Source: Nonlabens tegetincola (lineage in GTDB: Bacteria > Bacteroidota > Bacteroidia > Flavobacteriales > Flavobacteriaceae). From it: a stretch of DNA of 64,000 nt. Position 1 is the first letter of the stretch, and every line of letters starts with the position of its first letter. The stretch spans positions 310,001 through 374,000 of the forward strand of contig NZ_MQVV01000014.1 in the NCBI RefSeq assembly GCF_002954355.1, given 5' to 3'. A program made the translations under genes and the position numbers. Positions 11,302 through 29,786 of this stretch are shown one piece after another. The notes beneath the pieces were generated by a model. It had not been told where the DNA came from and made no database searches. It saw only the letters and a list, made by a program, of their open reading frames with translations.

Positions 11302-14300
11302 ATGAAAGACAAATTGATAGCTTTTTTCTTCAGTACCCGTACTATGGCAGTTCTTATGATAGGATTTGCAGCTGCGATGGCTTTTGGAACCTTTATTGAA
11401 AACAGTTACGATACACCTACATCAAAGATTTGGATCTATAATACTTGGTGGTTTTCCTTGATAATGTTGTGGTTGATGGCAAACTTTATTTATAATATTA
11501 AACGCTATCAATTGCTACAATGGAAAAAGTGGGCTGTGTTATTACTTCATATCTCTTGGGTACTCATAATAATAGGAGCAGGAATTACCAGATATATTTC
11601 TTATGAAGGTATGATGTTGATTCGTGAAGGAGAAACCGAAAAATTCTTTTTCAGCGAGAGTACTTACTTCAGTGCTATTATCCAAGGAAAAAGTCCAGAT
11701 GGTCAAGATATCCAACGTACTGTGGATGAAAAGGTCCTCATATCACCTTATGATTATGATATAGAAACCTCGTTTGAATACTTTAATGATAAAGTTACGG
11801 TGACTATCGATAGTTTACTATACGATGCTGTTGAAGGACTGGTGCCAGTTGAAGAAGGTACTGGTGATAGATACTTAACTGTAGTAGAAGCAGGTAGTGG
11901 TTCTCGTCACGATCATCTAATCAAGGATGGTGAGAAAAGTAGTATACACGGTGTACTTTTTGGTGTTAATATAGATCCCGAAATTGCTGCTAAAGAGAAA
12001 ATTATAAACATCACTGAAAACTGGAATGGTTATACAATTCAAACTCCTTATGAAGGTGAATTTTTAAGAATGGCAGACCAAATGAAAGGAACTGTTATTC
12101 AAGATAGTATTCAACCATTACAATTAAGATCTTTATATACCACAGCTGGTTTGCAATTTGTGATACCTAATGGAATTACTGAAGGTAGACCAGGAATTGT
12201 TCAAGCAAGTCCACCTACTAAAGCAAAAGCCTACGGCTTGTTTGTTACTATATCGGATGGTATTGAAAGTAAGAAAATGGAATTGCTAGGAGGAAAAGGT
12301 ATGATATCAGATTATGAAAATATTCAATTAGGCGATAAAAATGTGTACCTCAAGTATGGCTCAAAGCAACTTGAATTACCTTTTAGTGTAACTCTGGATG
12401 ATTTTGTGGCAAACAAGTACCCAGGTACTGAAAACGGATATTCTTCCTTTGAATCTTATGTTACAGTAAATGATGAATCTGGTGCAGTAAAGGAACATAT
12501 CTATATGAATAACGTATTAGATAAAGAAGGATATAGGTTTTTCCAAGCAGGCTTTGATCCAGACGAATTAGGAACACATTTAAGTGTTAACCATGATTGG
12601 TGGGGAACAAATATCACTTATTTGGGGTATTACCTTTTATATATTGGTTTATTAGGATTATTGTTTTCAAAACATACTCGCTTTGCAGAGTTAGGTAGAT
12701 TGGTGAATAGAGTAGTAAAACGTAAGGCCAAAATGGCTACTACTATCGTTGTTATTTTGTTTTCTATCTCTGGTGCTATAGCACAAGATAATCATGCCGG
12801 TCATGATCATGAAACAAATTCGGTAGCTTCGGATTCATTAGCCTCAGTAATTACGCAAGAGGCACCGCCTATCGAAGAAGTAAAGATGCCTGTGATACCA
12901 AAACAAAAATTAGACAGTATCATAGTTGCTAATATGGTTCCAGAGAAGCAAGCAGAAATGTTTGGTAGATTGGTAGCTCAAGATGATGGTAGAATGAAAC
13001 CAATCTCTACTTTATCAAGTGAAATTTTAAGAAGACTATCAGAAAAGGAATACTACGAGGCTGAAGTGGGAGACAGCATTGTCAAATTAACACCAGAGCA
13101 AACTCTTTTGAGTATGATGCAACTGGGACAATTGTGGTTTGAAGTACCTATCATTAAATTAAAAAGAGGTAACGACTCTATTCGTGACTTATTAGGAATT
13201 GATCGTAGTAGAAAGTTTGCTAGTGGAACAGATTTCTTCAGACGACCAGATGATACCTTTGGAAGTTACAAATTAAGCAGGTTAGTTGATGAAGCAAACG
13301 CTGCTGATATAAAGACTGCGCAGCAGAATAACATATTAGATCTCAACTTCTCGACGGGTATTTTAAACGAAACTCTTTCAGGAAATATCCTTAAAATTTT
13401 TCCAGGACAAAATACAGAGAATAACAAATGGTATTCCCCAATCGAAACTGAAAAGGCTAACTATCAAGCAGAACCAGAAAAGGAGTTTGCAAAAAATTTC
13501 ATTCCGGCATATTTGACATTGCTTAATCAAGGTAAACAAACAGGGAATTATCTAGCAGCAAATGCTGCTCTCAATGGGATGTTTGAATTTCAAAAGCAAT
13601 TTGGTGGTGATTTGTTGCCAAGTCAGGATAAGATTGACGCTGAGATTTTTTACAATAAACACGATATTTTCAAAAATTTGTACAAGTGGTATGGTTGGTT
13701 TGGATTATTAATGTTGCTTCTATTGGTGGCAGAGATATTAAAACCAATGAAACAAATCAGATGGAGTATAAATTTTCATCATATAGTTATTATTGGATTA
13801 TTTCTTGCTCATACAGCTGGATTAGTAGTTAGATGGTATTTAAGTGGTCATGCTCCATGGTCCGATGCTTATGAATCATTGATTTATGTAGCATGGGCTA
13901 CTATGGGTATGGGATTGTTGTTAAGCCGTAAAAGCCAGTTAATTGTTGCAGGAGCAGCCTTTGTAGTTGCTATAATTCTTTGGGTAGCTCAGTTAAATTG
14001 GTTAGATCCATCTATTTCCAATTTACAACCTGTATTAGACTCGTATTGGTTAATGATACACGTTGCTGTGATTGTAGGTAGTTATGGTCCATTTGCTTTG
14101 GGTATGATACTAGGATTGATAGCCTTGATTCTAATGATTGTAACTACTGAAAAGAATAAAAAACGTATTGATTTAAATATTAAAGAGCTTACCTACCTTA
14201 ACGAAGTAGTTTTGACTATAGGTATAATTATGCTTACAATAGGTAACTTTTTAGGAGGTATGTGGGCAAATGAAAGTTGGGGTAGATACTGGGGTTGGGA

Positions 14301-24567: not shown

Positions 24568-25902
24568 ATGTTACAAGATTTTAAACAACATATTCAAACC
24601 GCATTTCCAGAACTTTTAAACGCATCCCTGTTAATTGCAGTAAGCGGCGGTTGTGATAGTATGGTATTGTGGGATTTAATTCATCGGTCAGGTTTGAACT
24701 ATGCCGTGACTCATTGTAACTTCCTTCTTAGAGATAACGAAAGTGATAAAGATCAAGAGCTTGTTGTTAATAAAGCGCAAGAACTAGGGGTTGTTTGTCA
24801 TACAACTAGCTTCAATACTCAAAAGTTTATGAAACAGCACAACATGGCTGTTCAAGAAGCTGCTAGAAAATTAAGATACGATTATTTCTATGCTATGTGC
24901 AGGGAATTTAATTATGATTACATTCTCACTGCTCACCATTTAGATGATCAAATAGAAACATTCTTTATGCATCTTAATCGTGGTGCAGGATTAAATGGCC
25001 TTACAGGTATACCTGACCGCAATAATAAAATCCGAAGACCATTATTGGTTTTCTCTAGAGAGAGAATTGAAAACTATGCAACAAATAATCAGGTAGAGTA
25101 TAGAGAGGACGCAAGCAATAATCAAAATAACTATTTACGCAACCAATTGCGTAATCTCGTGCTTCCACAATTGTATAAAGCTTTACCACAATTAAAGGAA
25201 AATCTTCCCAAAGTGTTGGTTAATTTAAAAGCTAGTAAACAATTACAAGATGATGCGGTATCACGCTTTCGCGAAAGCGTAATCACACAGGTTCAGGATG
25301 AAATACATTTCTCGATAAAAGCATTAAAATCTTACCATCAAGCTGGTTTGTATTTTTATGAAGTTGTCAATCAATATACAGCCGTTAACTACGATGAATT
25401 AATGCAATTTATGTATTCACCAAGTGGTAAGAGATTAGAATTAGGTGCTTACCAATTATGGCGAGATAGAGAATATTTTAAGTTAATTCTCTTACCGAAA
25501 AAGATTGAATTTGATGTAAGTATGCCTATTGAAAATTCTAAAGTGAAAACTGAGATAGGAACTTTTGAACTTGAAATACGATCGGTAAATAATCCATTAG
25601 AGCTTGTAAAAAATGAAGCAAGCAAGAATAATTTGTTTCTTGATGCTGAATTAATAGACGCTCCTGTAAAAATAACAAATTGGAAAGCAGGAGATAAATT
25701 ACAGCCATTTGGTATGAAGGGGAAAAGTCAATTAGTAAGTGATATACTTACAAATTATAAGGTTTCTACCTTTGAAAAGCCCAATGTTCCAGTATTGCGT
25801 TATCTTGGTCATTTATTATGGGTGATAGGGTATAGAAACAGCATTCATTTTCCAGTTACATCATCTACTAAAAAACTATTAAAAATAACTTTTCATTCAT
25901 GA
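24568..25902 (+). CDS. tilS: tRNA(Ile)-lysidine synthetase
   Basis: This 444-residue protein has the PP-loop SGGCDS (residues 26-31), an ATP pyrophosphatase domain with LTAHHLDDQIETFFMHLNRG, and a C-terminal TilS domain (WKAGDKLQPFGMKGKSQLVSD). It modifies C34 of the AUA-reading tRNA(Ile) with lysine, an essential step. A palindrome copy at 25264-25279 encodes RFRES near residue 234, in the linker between the domains. The stop overlaps the dsbD start (ATGA). Confidence 0.93.
   Translation: MLQDFKQHIQTAFPELLNASLLIAVSGGCDSMVLWDLIHRSGLNYAVTHCNFLLRDNESDKDQELVVNKAQELGVVCHTTSFNTQKFMKQHNMAVQEAARKLRYDYFYAMCREFNYDYILTAHHLDDQIETFFMHLNRGAGLNGLTGIPDRNNKIRRPLLVFSRERIENYATNNQVEYREDASNNQNNYLRNQLRNLVLPQLYKALPQLKENLPKVLVNLKASKQLQDDAVSRFRESVITQVQDEIHFSIKALKSYHQAGLYFYEVVNQYTAVNYDELMQFMYSPSGKRLELGAYQLWRDREYFKLILLPKKIEFDVSMPIENSKVKTEIGTFELEIRSVNNPLELVKNEASKNNLFLDAELIDAPVKITNWKAGDKLQPFGMKGKSQLVSDILTNYKVSTFEKPNVPVLRYLGHLLWVIGYRNSIHFPVTSSTKKLLKITFHS
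25264..25279. repeat. Dispersed palindrome copy 6 (exact)
   Basis: Exact 16-mer inside tilS, read as Arg-Phe-Arg-Glu-Ser, followed by GTAATCAC. Confidence 0.95.
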
Positions 25903-27974
25903 GAAACTACCTAAGCATTTTATTGTGCTTTTTGAGCTTTTATGCTTTTGCACAGTTTGGTGACCAAGATCCTACCAATTGGAATACAACCGTTGAAAAA
26001 ATAGCAGAAAACGAATATGTTTTCAAAACTCAAGTAACTCTAGAACCTGGATGGCATTTATACTCTCAAACAGGTGAAAAGGGTAGAGGACCTATTCCAA
26101 CTACATTTAGTTATTACGGAGTTGAAGATAAAATTGAACTTATCGGTGTAAATAAGGAGGAAGGATCTTTTGCAGAGTTTTCTTCCGTTTGGGATTTCAA
26201 TGTGTATCAATTTTCTGATAAAGGTAGTTTTGAACAACGGGTGAAAATACTAGATGAAGCTCTAGAATACATCGTTGGAGAAATAGGTTATCAGGTGTGT
26301 GATGATGAAAAGTGTTTAAGACCAACTTCTTTTTCATACGTGTATAAACTCAATCCTGATGTTGTAGTTCCTGATGACGCCACTGATATCATTGATGTTT
26401 ATTATGATGAAGAAAAGGAACCTTTACTTTCGCAAGGACCTGAACCCAGTTCCATTCCACTAATGGAAAGTCATGACTTAGAATCTAAATCAGAATCTGA
26501 TGTAGAAGCATCTGAAAGTGATACGAGTAATAAACAAAATGATAAAATTGAAAATGACACGGAAGAAAAGAGTTTATGGGCTATTTTCTTGGTTTCCTTT
26601 TTAGCCGGTTTTGCAGCCTTATTAACACCTTGTGTATTTCCAATGATACCGCTTACGGTGAGTTTCTTTACTAAACAAAGTAGTAACCGAGCTAAAGGAA
26701 TATCAAACGCTATTCTATATGGCTTTTTTATCATATTAATCTATGTGTTGTTAGGTAGTGTAGTGGTGGCTATTTTTGGTGACCGCATCCTAAATGCCAT
26801 GTCTACTAATGCTTATGTCAATTTAGGTTTTTTCATCATTCTTATAATTTTTGCCGCTTCTTTCCTTGGAGCGTTTGAAATTACCTTACCGCAATCTTGG
26901 GCAAATAAAGTCGACGAAAAATCCAATAAAGGTGGATTTATAGGTATATTTTTTATGGCATTGGCTTTAGCCATAATTTCATTTTCTTGTACGGGACCTA
27001 TTGTTGGATCATTGATTGTTGAAGCAGCCAGTAAAGGTGGAGTAGCACCTATTGTTGGTATGCTAGGATTCTCGACTGCTCTTGCTCTTCCCTTTACTTT
27101 GTTTGCCATCTTTCCTGGCTGGATGAATTCGTTACCAAAATCAGGTGGATGGTTGAATACAGTTAAAGTTGTTTTGGGTTTTTTAGAGTTAGCGTTAGCA
27201 TTCAAATTTTTATCCAACGCAGATTTAGTTTATCAATTCATGCTGTTACCACGTGAGGTGTTCCTGGCCTTTTGGATAGCCATATTTGGTTCATTAGCCT
27301 TGTATTTATTTGGTAGAATTAAAATGCCACACGATGGACCAGAGTCAACTATTTCAGTAGGTAGAGCCTTGTTAGGTGTGGTTGTTTTAGCCTTTACTAT
27401 TTACATGATTCCTGGTATGTGGGGTGCACCATTAAAAATTATATCAGGTTTTCCACCGCCATTAAATTATGCGGAGTCACCTTATGGAGTAGGTTACAAA
27501 AAGCTTACTGAAGTGACAGAAATTCCTGAACATGCGCATTTAGGTGTTCACGACATCATAACTTTTGATGATTATGATGAAGGATTGGCGTATGCTAAAC
27601 AAGTCAATAAACCCGTGTTAGTAGATTTCACTGGTTATGCTTGTGTGAATTGCCGTAAAATGGAAGAACGTGTTTGGTCAGATTCTAGAATATTGCCCAT
27701 ATTAAAGAATGACTTTGTGATGATTTCTTTATACGTAGATGATCAAAACAAACTACCCAAAGAAGAGCAATATGAAAGTGAAGTCTTAGGAGGAAAAGTA
27801 AGAACGATAGGAGATAAGTGGTACGAGTTACAAAAGAAACAATTTAAGAATGCAGCACAGCCTTATTATGTGAAACTTAATGCGGATGGAACTCAAAAAG
27901 GAATGCCTGATCCAGTAGGTTATACGCCAGACATAAATGAATATAGAGATTGGTTAAAAGAAGGTATCCAATAA
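25899..27974 (+). CDS. dsbD: Thiol:disulfide interchange protein DsbD
   Basis: This 691-residue protein has all three DsbD parts. An N-terminal periplasmic domain follows a signal peptide and holds the Cys134/Cys139 pair. A spacer of acidic and Ser residues lies at about 180-222. A TM core carries LLTPCVFPMIPL and FSCTGPIVG Cys motifs. A C-terminal thioredoxin-like domain has YACVNCRKM (Cys582, Cys585). DsbD carries electrons from cytoplasmic thioredoxin across the inner membrane to reduce periplasmic disulfides, which also serves cytochrome c maturation (ccsBA is in this window). Overlaps tilS by 4 bp. A strong terminator follows. Confidence 0.93.
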   Translation: MRNYLSILLCFLSFYAFAQFGDQDPTNWNTTVEKIAENEYVFKTQVTLEPGWHLYSQTGEKGRGPIPTTFSYYGVEDKIELIGVNKEEGSFAEFSSVWDFNVYQFSDKGSFEQRVKILDEALEYIVGEIGYQVCDDEKCLRPTSFSYVYKLNPDVVVPDDATDIIDVYYDEEKEPLLSQGPEPSSIPLMESHDLESKSESDVEASESDTSNKQNDKIENDTEEKSLWAIFLVSFLAGFAALLTPCVFPMIPLTVSFFTKQSSNRAKGISNAILYGFFIILIYVLLGSVVVAIFGDRILNAMSTNAYVNLGFFIILIIFAASFLGAFEITLPQSWANKVDEKSNKGGFIGIFFMALALAIISFSCTGPIVGSLIVEAASKGGVAPIVGMLGFSTALALPFTLFAIFPGWMNSLPKSGGWLNTVKVVLGFLELALAFKFLSNADLVYQFMLLPREVFLAFWIAIFGSLALYLFGRIKMPHDGPESTISVGRALLGVVVLAFTIYMIPGMWGAPLKIISGFPPPLNYAESPYGVGYKKLTEVTEIPEHAHLGVHDIITFDDYDEGLAYAKQVNKPVLVDFTGYACVNCRKMEERVWSDSRILPILKNDFVMISLYVDDQNKLPKEEQYESEVLGGKVRTIGDKWYELQKKQFKNAAQPYYVKLNADGTQKGMPDPVGYTPDINEYRDWLKEGIQ

Positions 27975-28003: not shown

Positions 28004-28034
28004 AACCCGTTTGAAGCTTCAAACGGGTTTTTTT
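28004..28034 (+). terminator. Rho-independent terminator of dsbD
   Basis: AACCCGTTTGAAG and CTTCAAACGGGTT form a perfect 13-bp inverted repeat followed by T5, 30 bp after the stop. Confidence 0.92.
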
Positions 28035-28204
28035 ATTGCTAGCTTATCTCAATCTACTTAACTGTTTTATATTCTTCCTATTCTTTTTATAGATTTAAAG
28101 ACCTTATTCTTTATCGATGATTTGGTCAGAATGTAATCGAGTTTGGGAAGTGTGAACTATGGTATTAATGATGTATATAGAAGAGTTTCTTTTTGAAAAA
28201 GAAT

Positions 28205-28261
28205 AGAAGTATAGCTAGTATCCTAAATAATTGGACTATTTAGGATACTAGCTATACTTCT
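28205..28261. repeat. Perfect 25-bp inverted repeat (hairpin)
   Basis: Arms 28205-28229 and 28237-28261 are exact reverse complements separated by 7 nt. No U-run follows on either strand, so it is not a normal terminator. It could be a structured RNA, a recombination or replication-related site, or the remnant of a small mobile element. A small palindrome (TTCTTTTTGAAAAAGAA) ends 1 bp before its left arm. Confidence 0.75.
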
Positions 28262-28450: not shown

Positions 28451-28478
28451 AAAAAAAGCTGCCCGACTGGGCAGCTTT
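28451..28478 (-). terminator. Rho-independent terminator of ompA
   Basis: AAAGCTGCCC, loop GACT, GGGCAGCTTT form a perfect 10-bp stem; A7 at 28451-28457 is the U-run on the minus strand, 24 bp after the stop. Confidence 0.92.
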
Positions 28479-28502: not shown

Positions 28503-29786
28503 TTAGTTTACTCTAAAAGTAACTCTTCTTACCATTTGTCTAGCTTGTGCGCTATTTTTATCTACTGATGCATCTTCACCATCACCGTTAACAGTTAACC
28601 TTGAAGCATCAATACCAGCTGCAACCATTACATCATTTACCATCTTAGCACGACGCTCAGACAATTGTTTGTTGTATTCTGGGCTTCCGATTTCATCAGC
28701 ATATCCAGTTAAAGTAGCAGTTGCAGAAGGGTGATCCTTCATATACTGTACGATAGTGTTAAGAGCTCCTAAACTATAAGTAGTAGGCTTAGTGCTGTTA
28801 AACTGGAAATATACATTTACGTAACCTTCGTTGATTAATTTTTTAACTAGATCAGAGTCAGCAGCTCCAGCTTGATTCATCATGTTTTCAGCATCGGTCT
28901 TATTTACATAAGTATTAGCTAAAGAACTTTCCATATCATCTGGGATACCGTTTTTGTTCATGTCGATTGCGCGACCTTTACTATCAACTCTCACACCACT
29001 TTCAGTAGTATTATCACGGTCTAAATAGTTAGGAACACCATCTTGATCATCATCTGCTTGCTCGCGAGCCATTTTATCAACAGCTGCTGCCATTTCAGCA
29101 ATTTTCTCATCATACATATCTGGAGCCCAGTCTGCATGAATATCATTACTACCTAGGTAAATATTTAAACCTGCAGAAGCATTTACCACAAATCCATTAA
29201 ATCCTCTGGTTCCTGTTCTTCCTAGACCGTCAAAAGTATAGTCTTGTCTAACATGTCCTAGTATAGATAAATCTCCGAATAAAGCGATTCTATTAGATAA
29301 TCTCACTTGTGGAGTAACTCCAAGCTGGAAATTAAGCATGTATTCTTCATCTAATTCAATAGGTTCAACTGGTTTTAGAGTAGATACACCCATACCTCCG
29401 TGAACTAAAAGACCTAATCGGTCGTCTAATTGATTTAATCCAATAATATGTCCTGCGTTAAGTACACCTTCAAGTGTTGCTCTTACATACCTGCTTTCAA
29501 AATCACGGCTTTCTTCATCTGCATTGAAGCTATTATATCCTAAATCAAGATTAAAACCAAATTTATTGTTCACCATGTAACGAATACCTAAATCTGCCTG
29601 CCACAAGGATGGTGTGTTAGTAAAGGCTCCTGATGATACTGGTCTTACAGGTTTTGTTACACCCGCACCTACATCGATCGACCACTTGTTAAAGTCGTTA
29701 ACTTTAACATCTGATTCCATTTCGTCATTTTGTGCAACAGCTATACTAGCTACTAAAGCCATTGCCAAAAAAATACTTTTTTTCAT
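28503..29786 (-). CDS. ompA: OmpA-family outer membrane protein with TSP3 calcium repeats
   Basis: This 427-residue protein has a signal peptide (ending SIAVAQ), an N-terminal beta-barrel of about 190 residues, and a thrombospondin type-3-like Ca2+ linker (DDDQDGVPNYLDRDN and DMNKNGIPDDMES). A C-terminal OmpA peptidoglycan-binding domain ends it (LTGYADEIGSPEYNKQLSERR). It anchors the outer membrane to the cell wall and may be an abundant porin. The strong -7 box and strong terminator fit high expression. Single-gene unit, divergent from ugd. Confidence 0.92.
   Translation of the reverse strand: MKKSIFLAMALVASIAVAQNDEMESDVKVNDFNKWSIDVGAGVTKPVRPVSSGAFTNTPSLWQADLGIRYMVNNKFGFNLDLGYNSFNADEESRDFESRYVRATLEGVLNAGHIIGLNQLDDRLGLLVHGGMGVSTLKPVEPIELDEEYMLNFQLGVTPQVRLSNRIALFGDLSILGHVRQDYTFDGLGRTGTRGFNGFVVNASAGLNIYLGSNDIHADWAPDMYDEKIAEMAAAVDKMAREQADDDQDGVPNYLDRDNTTESGVRVDSKGRAIDMNKNGIPDDMESSLANTYVNKTDAENMMNQAGAADSDLVKKLINEGYVNVYFQFNSTKPTTYSLGALNTIVQYMKDHPSATATLTGYADEIGSPEYNKQLSERRAKMVNDVMVAAGIDASRLTVNGDGEDASVDKNSAQARQMVRRVTFRVN

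Follow-up and report, generated by a model that had tools for sequence, protein, structure and literature searches.

A perfect 25-bp hairpin lying between two convergent genes of the 64-kb window (the whole stretch of Nonlabens tegetincola DNA analysed here) is best read, at evenly balanced confidence, as a rare and young inverted duplication left by template switching during replication, and as probably functionless. In such a switch, the polymerase would briefly have copied nearby sequence on the opposite strand, so that about 25 bases reappear as their reverse complement, seven bases from the source. The inverted duplication could have arisen in a single step or by the completion of an imperfect hairpin. 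The two terminators enclose about 425 bp of fast-changing non-coding sequence, in which the copy would then have been tolerated. This reading is proposed because the stem is perfect and single-copy, the surrounding DNA appears unconstrained, and no counterpart was found in the relatives searched. The rarity of lone non-terminator hairpins (one in 2.02 Mb) also fits a rare-event origin. An earlier note on this DNA had kept a chance inversion or repair product as its fallback in case the hairpin had no second copy, no transcript and no conservation. Second copy and conservation are lacking in the genomes searched, and that fallback has become the preferred reading, with template switching as its concrete mechanism.

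The hairpin is genuine and far beyond chance. An independent inverted-repeat search recovered the arms described in the earlier note, at 28205-28229 and 28237-28261, each 25 nt long, 100% complementary and separated by a 7-nt spacer. The longest arm in ten 64-kb first-order Markov resamples, which served as the length control rather than exact shuffles, was 12 bp with loops of up to 30, and the second-longest perfect arm of the actual window is 13 bp. The RNA fold of the 171-nt hairpin region has a z-score of -6.2 and the DNA fold of an 84-nt region one of -10.5, with none of 200 shuffles equally good in either case. The small palindrome said to lie just before the hairpin is indeed present (Table 1). 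It also pairs in the computed DNA fold, and its first half is the U-rich tract that follows the stem when the minus strand is read. Outside the arms, the first two positions are unpaired (T/T and A/A), which speaks for template switching. Beyond these two bases, pairing is possible at five of the first 12 positions, and the edges are imperfectly clean.

Table 1. Positions in the window of the hairpin, the adjacent palindrome, and the flanking genes and terminators.
Feature	Position	Strand	Basis
Perfect inverted repeat, 25-bp arms, 7-nt loop ATTGGAC	28205..28261		sequence, repeat search, folds
Smaller palindrome TTCTTTTT-G-AAAAAGAA, 8 bp plus one central base	28187..28203		read from sequence, folds
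dsbD-family gene (DsbD_TM, thioredoxin-like), left neighbour	25899..27974	+	Pfam
ompA-family gene, right neighbour	28503..29786	-	Pfam
Terminator of the dsbD-family gene, perfect 13-bp stem and T-run	28004..28029	+	
Terminator of the ompA-family gene, T-run after stem	28455..28478 (read 28478-28455)	-	

The dsbD/ompA gap measures 528 bp, and the distances from the hairpin to the ends of the two genes are 231 and 242 bp. Both gene terminators were located, which bears out the placement between terminators of convergent genes. The gap's description as gene-free and encoding nothing visible also stands: its only open frames of at least 20 aa are 24 and 22 aa long. A decayed gene was considered and rejected, as a six-frame search against the relatives' loci gave no match better than E 0.7. 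The sequence TAnnTTTG is the -7 element of flavobacteria (consensus from PMC9723704). No exact copy of it is found in the gap; one lies upstream of the ompA-family gene and one upstream of the UDP-sugar dehydrogenase gene. The box occurs 84 times in the window against 96 expected, that is, at chance level, so its absence from the gap is weak evidence. A promoter scan for a TTG box at fixed spacing found none in the gap and none in the ompA/ugd upstream control region, and promoter inference thus depends solely on the exact -7 box. Separately, Por_Secre_tail gave 36 matches, 33 of them above the cut-off, which points to a flavobacterium-like lineage within the Bacteroidota.

No second copy of the arm exists at up to three mismatches in the 3.03-Mb source genome, and the 25-nt arm is absent at the same tolerance from 22 other genomes of the genus. 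The arm's absence from these 22 led to the rejection of a dif-type site. None of the 396 other family genomes sampled (397 with the source genome) holds a two-armed copy; two of them carry one arm match each, with three mismatches and on a single strand. A similarity search of 58 relatives with a 231-bp query gave no match on the arms. The exact arm 18-mer occurs in no viral contig, and in two named species genomes it appears with no second arm in the surrounding 150 nt, in a search that may omit the window's own or nearest genomes. The dsbD gene was matched in 21 other genus genomes, nine of which carry ompA in convergent orientation within the downstream flank inspected (1.5 kb, except 628 bp at one locus, L045). 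In the convergent gaps of these nine relatives, no perfect hairpin of at least 12 bp lies away from the gene ends. Eight of the gaps were measured, at 396-963 bp. Six were aligned with the hairpin gap with no clear homology by eye, and blastn of the hairpin gap against the relatives' loci gave only chance-level similarity among the matches listed. The search of the genome and its relatives proposed in the earlier note has therefore returned neither a second copy nor conservation, and the family of short inverted-repeat elements that it raised is not supported for this arm, which is single-copy and has no two-armed copy in the genus and family genomes searched. REPs and MITEs are multicopy. The hairpin resembles these palindromic repeats in being an extragenic palindrome and differs from them in being single-copy. 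The same note had also seen in the perfect arms either recent origin or strong constraint. The first fits a single copy absent from the relatives searched; as for the second, no conservation was seen.

A few weak similarities were set aside. A match in the source genome (C14:422953, E 0.002) lies, by eye, inside a lipoprotein-like gene, and one in the relative G002 (C1:399214, E 4e-4) spans what looks by eye like the junction of two transporter-subunit-like frames; both were taken as chance. Six matches in other relatives (E 0.002-0.009) get at best as far as the small palindrome and the start of the arm. Matches of the 171-nt region in phages and plasmids were also rejected: none covers more than 36% of the region, and all have E values of 0.1 or worse.

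Long perfect stems are themselves no oddity in this genome. In 864 kb of it (the window and 40 further stretches), there are 11 perfect hairpins of at least 18 bp, of 25, 23, 22, 20, 19 and 19 bp and five of 18 bp. Apart from the 25-bp one, all show on inspection by eye the A-tract...T-tract arrangement of terminators, and when up to four mismatches are allowed, 11 of the 12 hairpins of at least 18 pairs prove to be perfect. Since long perfect hairpins are mostly terminator-like here, length and perfection are shared with ordinary terminators, and the distinguishing traits of the 25-bp hairpin are its composition and its place. The survey was carried out over 2.02 Mb of four genomes (these 864 kb and, from other genomes of the genus, 400 kb each of G002 and G017 and 360 kb of G010, with about 12 kb masked), using a d'Aubenton-Carafa-type formula. 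A non-terminator was defined, by a cut-off of our own, as a hairpin scoring under 5 in both directions. Among hairpins of at least 18 bp, this definition retained the 25-bp one, the 23-bp hairpin of the source genome (L070) and two palindromes of G002. L070 has a clear terminator build, and is scored too low because the script trims up to 11 base pairs. As for the G002 palindromes, the core of one (L112) recurs at L114, and the other (L121) is accompanied by near copies at distances of 1.1 and 1.7 kb. At this cut-off, the 25-bp hairpin is the sole single-copy non-terminator hairpin of at least 18 bp in the four genomes, a rough base rate of one such perfect hairpin per 2.02 Mb, from which it follows that the generating process is rare here.

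Two repeat arrangements were noted along the way. The 400 kb of G002 contain two small palindrome families with 14-20 paired bases per arm, one with two copies (L112 18323-18360 and L114 4691-4724) and the other with three (L121 3623-3662, 4691-4728 and 5283-5318). In the source genome, the same pair of hairpins stands at L062 1643-1750 and 7838-7945 on contig G000:C14. This recurrence, at a distance of 6,195 bp, suggests a direct duplication close to where contig 14 begins.

The main rival to template switching is a backup transcription barrier acting mainly leftward, which we consider possible though doubtful. A polymerase reading through the ompA terminator would make an RNA hairpin of 27 pairs followed by UUCUUUUU, and would stop there before producing RNA antisense to dsbD. 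The predicted leftward RNA is a stable one, with 27 pairs around a 3-nt loop and then a second hairpin of seven pairs, at -41.4 kcal/mol. The earlier note had stated that the hairpin lacks a U-run; this holds on the plus strand and fails on the minus strand, where the stem is followed by one base (A) and then by TTCTTTTT, seven T in eight (A-UUCUUUUU in the leftward reading). When 57-bp blocks were placed at 12,300 random intergenic positions in the sampled genome, 2.6% had seven T of eight at 0-2 nt from one end or the other. The convergent context also speaks for a barrier, as nine of the 11 perfect hairpins of at least 18 bp in the 864 kb, the 25-bp one included, sit in convergent gaps by simple open-frame calls. 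So does the finding that antisense RNA in F. psychrophilum arises mostly through imperfect termination and non-canonical initiation (PMC9723704). Against this, the terminator-like score is -0.3 leftward and -5.0 rightward, which ranks the hairpin 39th of 42 hairpins of at least 14 bp, while the two neighbouring gene terminators reach 33.1 and 56.7; on stem and tail combined, it thus falls short of them as an intrinsic terminator. It has the long perfect stem and the convergent setting of bidirectional intrinsic terminators, but unlike them it has no A-tract/T-tract frame, has an AT-rich stem base, scores low, and lies more than 200 bases from either gene end. In Bacillus cereus, conservation is higher for bidirectional than for one-way terminators (PMC5381666), and a conserved barrier here should echo that trend; nine relatives with the same gene arrangement have no counterpart.

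A function of another kind is unlikely. The hairpin could be a species-specific structured small RNA, an RNase III substrate, or a cruciform or protein-binding site, as it folds strongly on both strands and lies in a long gap (528 bp, whereas the 104 convergent gaps of the genome sample, delimited by open frames of at least 100 aa, have a median of 58 bp; eight of them, this one included, reach at least 528 bp). The gap, however, lacks an exact TAnnTTTG box, none of the Rfam matches listed reaches the gathering score (24 lie below threshold), and no conservation was seen among the genus and family genomes searched. An improbable variant joins function to the preferred origin: the hairpin would have been born by template switching and would now be kept as a species-specific functional element, either a leftward tandem-hairpin RNA 3' end or a target for RNase III or a protein. 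In that case, one would be seeing a terminator or regulatory RNA at the moment of its emergence. A mobile element has little probability, whether as two terminal inverted repeats (TIRs) left by internal deletion or as a very small palindromic element. Perfect arms around a short spacer do resemble paired TIRs, and the best plasmid match (E 0.1-0.3), which coincides with the hairpin, is another perfect palindrome, of 33 bp, located directly after the partition gene prgO; the two palindromes have the core ATAGCTAGTAT in common. Yet the arm has no other copy at three mismatches in the source genome or the 22 genus genomes, there is no target-site duplication of at least 3 bp directly at the hairpin ends, and the plasmids come from another phylum, with matches at chance level. 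The plasmid palindrome occurs in six records from Levilactobacillus, Pediococcus and Lactiplantibacillus, 95-100% identical, and a search with the hairpin only found nine records in the same genera (E 0.3-4). None of the 396 other family genomes contains the core hairpin ATAGCTAGTAT-N(4-34)-ATACTAGCTAT. It is found in three viral contigs (with stems of only 14, 11 and 14 bp), of which two carry a single stretch in opposite orientations, against 0 and 1 contigs for two scrambled-core controls. Because of these controls and the absence of the core from the family, the likeness is taken as a coincidence between AT-rich hairpins, a shared origin being possible. Very improbable, finally, is an assembly or library artefact: fold-back chimeras do yield perfect inverted repeats, but the hairpin lies at 338 kb within a 536-kb contig, and ordinary reads are long enough to cross it.

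On the plasmids themselves, the 33-bp perfect palindrome after prgO, seen for instance on the Lactiplantibacillus pentosus plasmid NZ_CP129544.1 (L178 1736-1816), is possibly a terminator or a partition site.

Template switching, the reading preferred here, is reported to be able to produce a perfect stem in one event, and also to repair stems that already exist (Monttinen and Loytynoja, PMC8794818). In another study, the excess of inverted repeats in bacterial intergenic regions is ascribed to terminators and regulation, and template switching is discussed for coding sequence (PMC4060949). The hairpin has what is expected of such quasipalindrome products, namely a short, perfect reverse-complement copy close beside its source, with no family found. 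It differs from them in that its ancestral state was not seen, and we infer the event. A search for a one-arm ancestor in the gaps of the nine relatives gave partial matches of 12 of 13 positions at L021 and L033 and chance-level results in the other seven. These two weak matches, equalled by one of 30 resamples for L021 and by none of 30 for L033, concern different parts of the arm and different places. What stands against template switching is that neither the donor arm nor the event was seen, that the outer edges of the arms are not wholly clean, that the process is rare here, that the minus strand carries a U-rich tract, and that most long convergent-gap hairpins here look like working terminators. 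If the reading is true, the hairpin would clearly exemplify how a long perfect stem can arise at one stroke in the intergenic DNA of a bacterium, and such stems would offer material from which terminators or small RNAs could form. Apart from this value as an example, the hairpin is ordinary.

Another palindrome of the window, GCTTTCGCGAAAGC, looks far more interesting than the 25-bp hairpin. It has 577 evenly spaced copies in the source genome and is abundant throughout the genus; in the window, it stands at 903, 7038, 10740, 17584, 21665, 25265, 31333, 34319, 49023, 53240, 61178 and 63772. The 864 kb sampled contain 165 copies where base composition predicts about none, and 115 of these are inside open frames, though frames cover 90% of the sample. 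Its intervals have a coefficient of variation of 0.50, against 0.92 for random placement (the lowest of 300 trials being 0.75), and only one of 125 is under 1 kb, against 28 in random placement. Similar values are obtained in G002 (0.52, with two of 64 intervals under 1 kb). The 16-mer CGCTTTCGCGAAAGCG of this palindrome is present at 180-737 copies per genome in all 23 genus genomes, its reversed control at 0, and the flanks form an extended T/G-rich half-site. GCTTTCGCGAAAGC has the look of a highly iterated palindrome or of a binding site that organises the chromosome, and may resemble parS/Noc-type sites and HIP1. None of the papers searched contains its 14-mer or 16-mer; its 10-mer core occurs in 10 papers, none of them about such a repeat as far as titles and the first lines of abstracts tell. 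Outside the genus, 20 of 98 sampled family genomes hold 1-17 copies. Two 20-kb stretches, chosen because GCTTTCGCGAAAGC clusters there, have three copies (L171, G131:C1:2536001-2556000) and four (L172, G122:C1:2822001-2842000). By eye, the open frames of L171 encode metal-transporting P-type ATPases, a CzcA-like efflux pump and adaptor proteins, so the palindrome may mark DNA transferred from the source genus.
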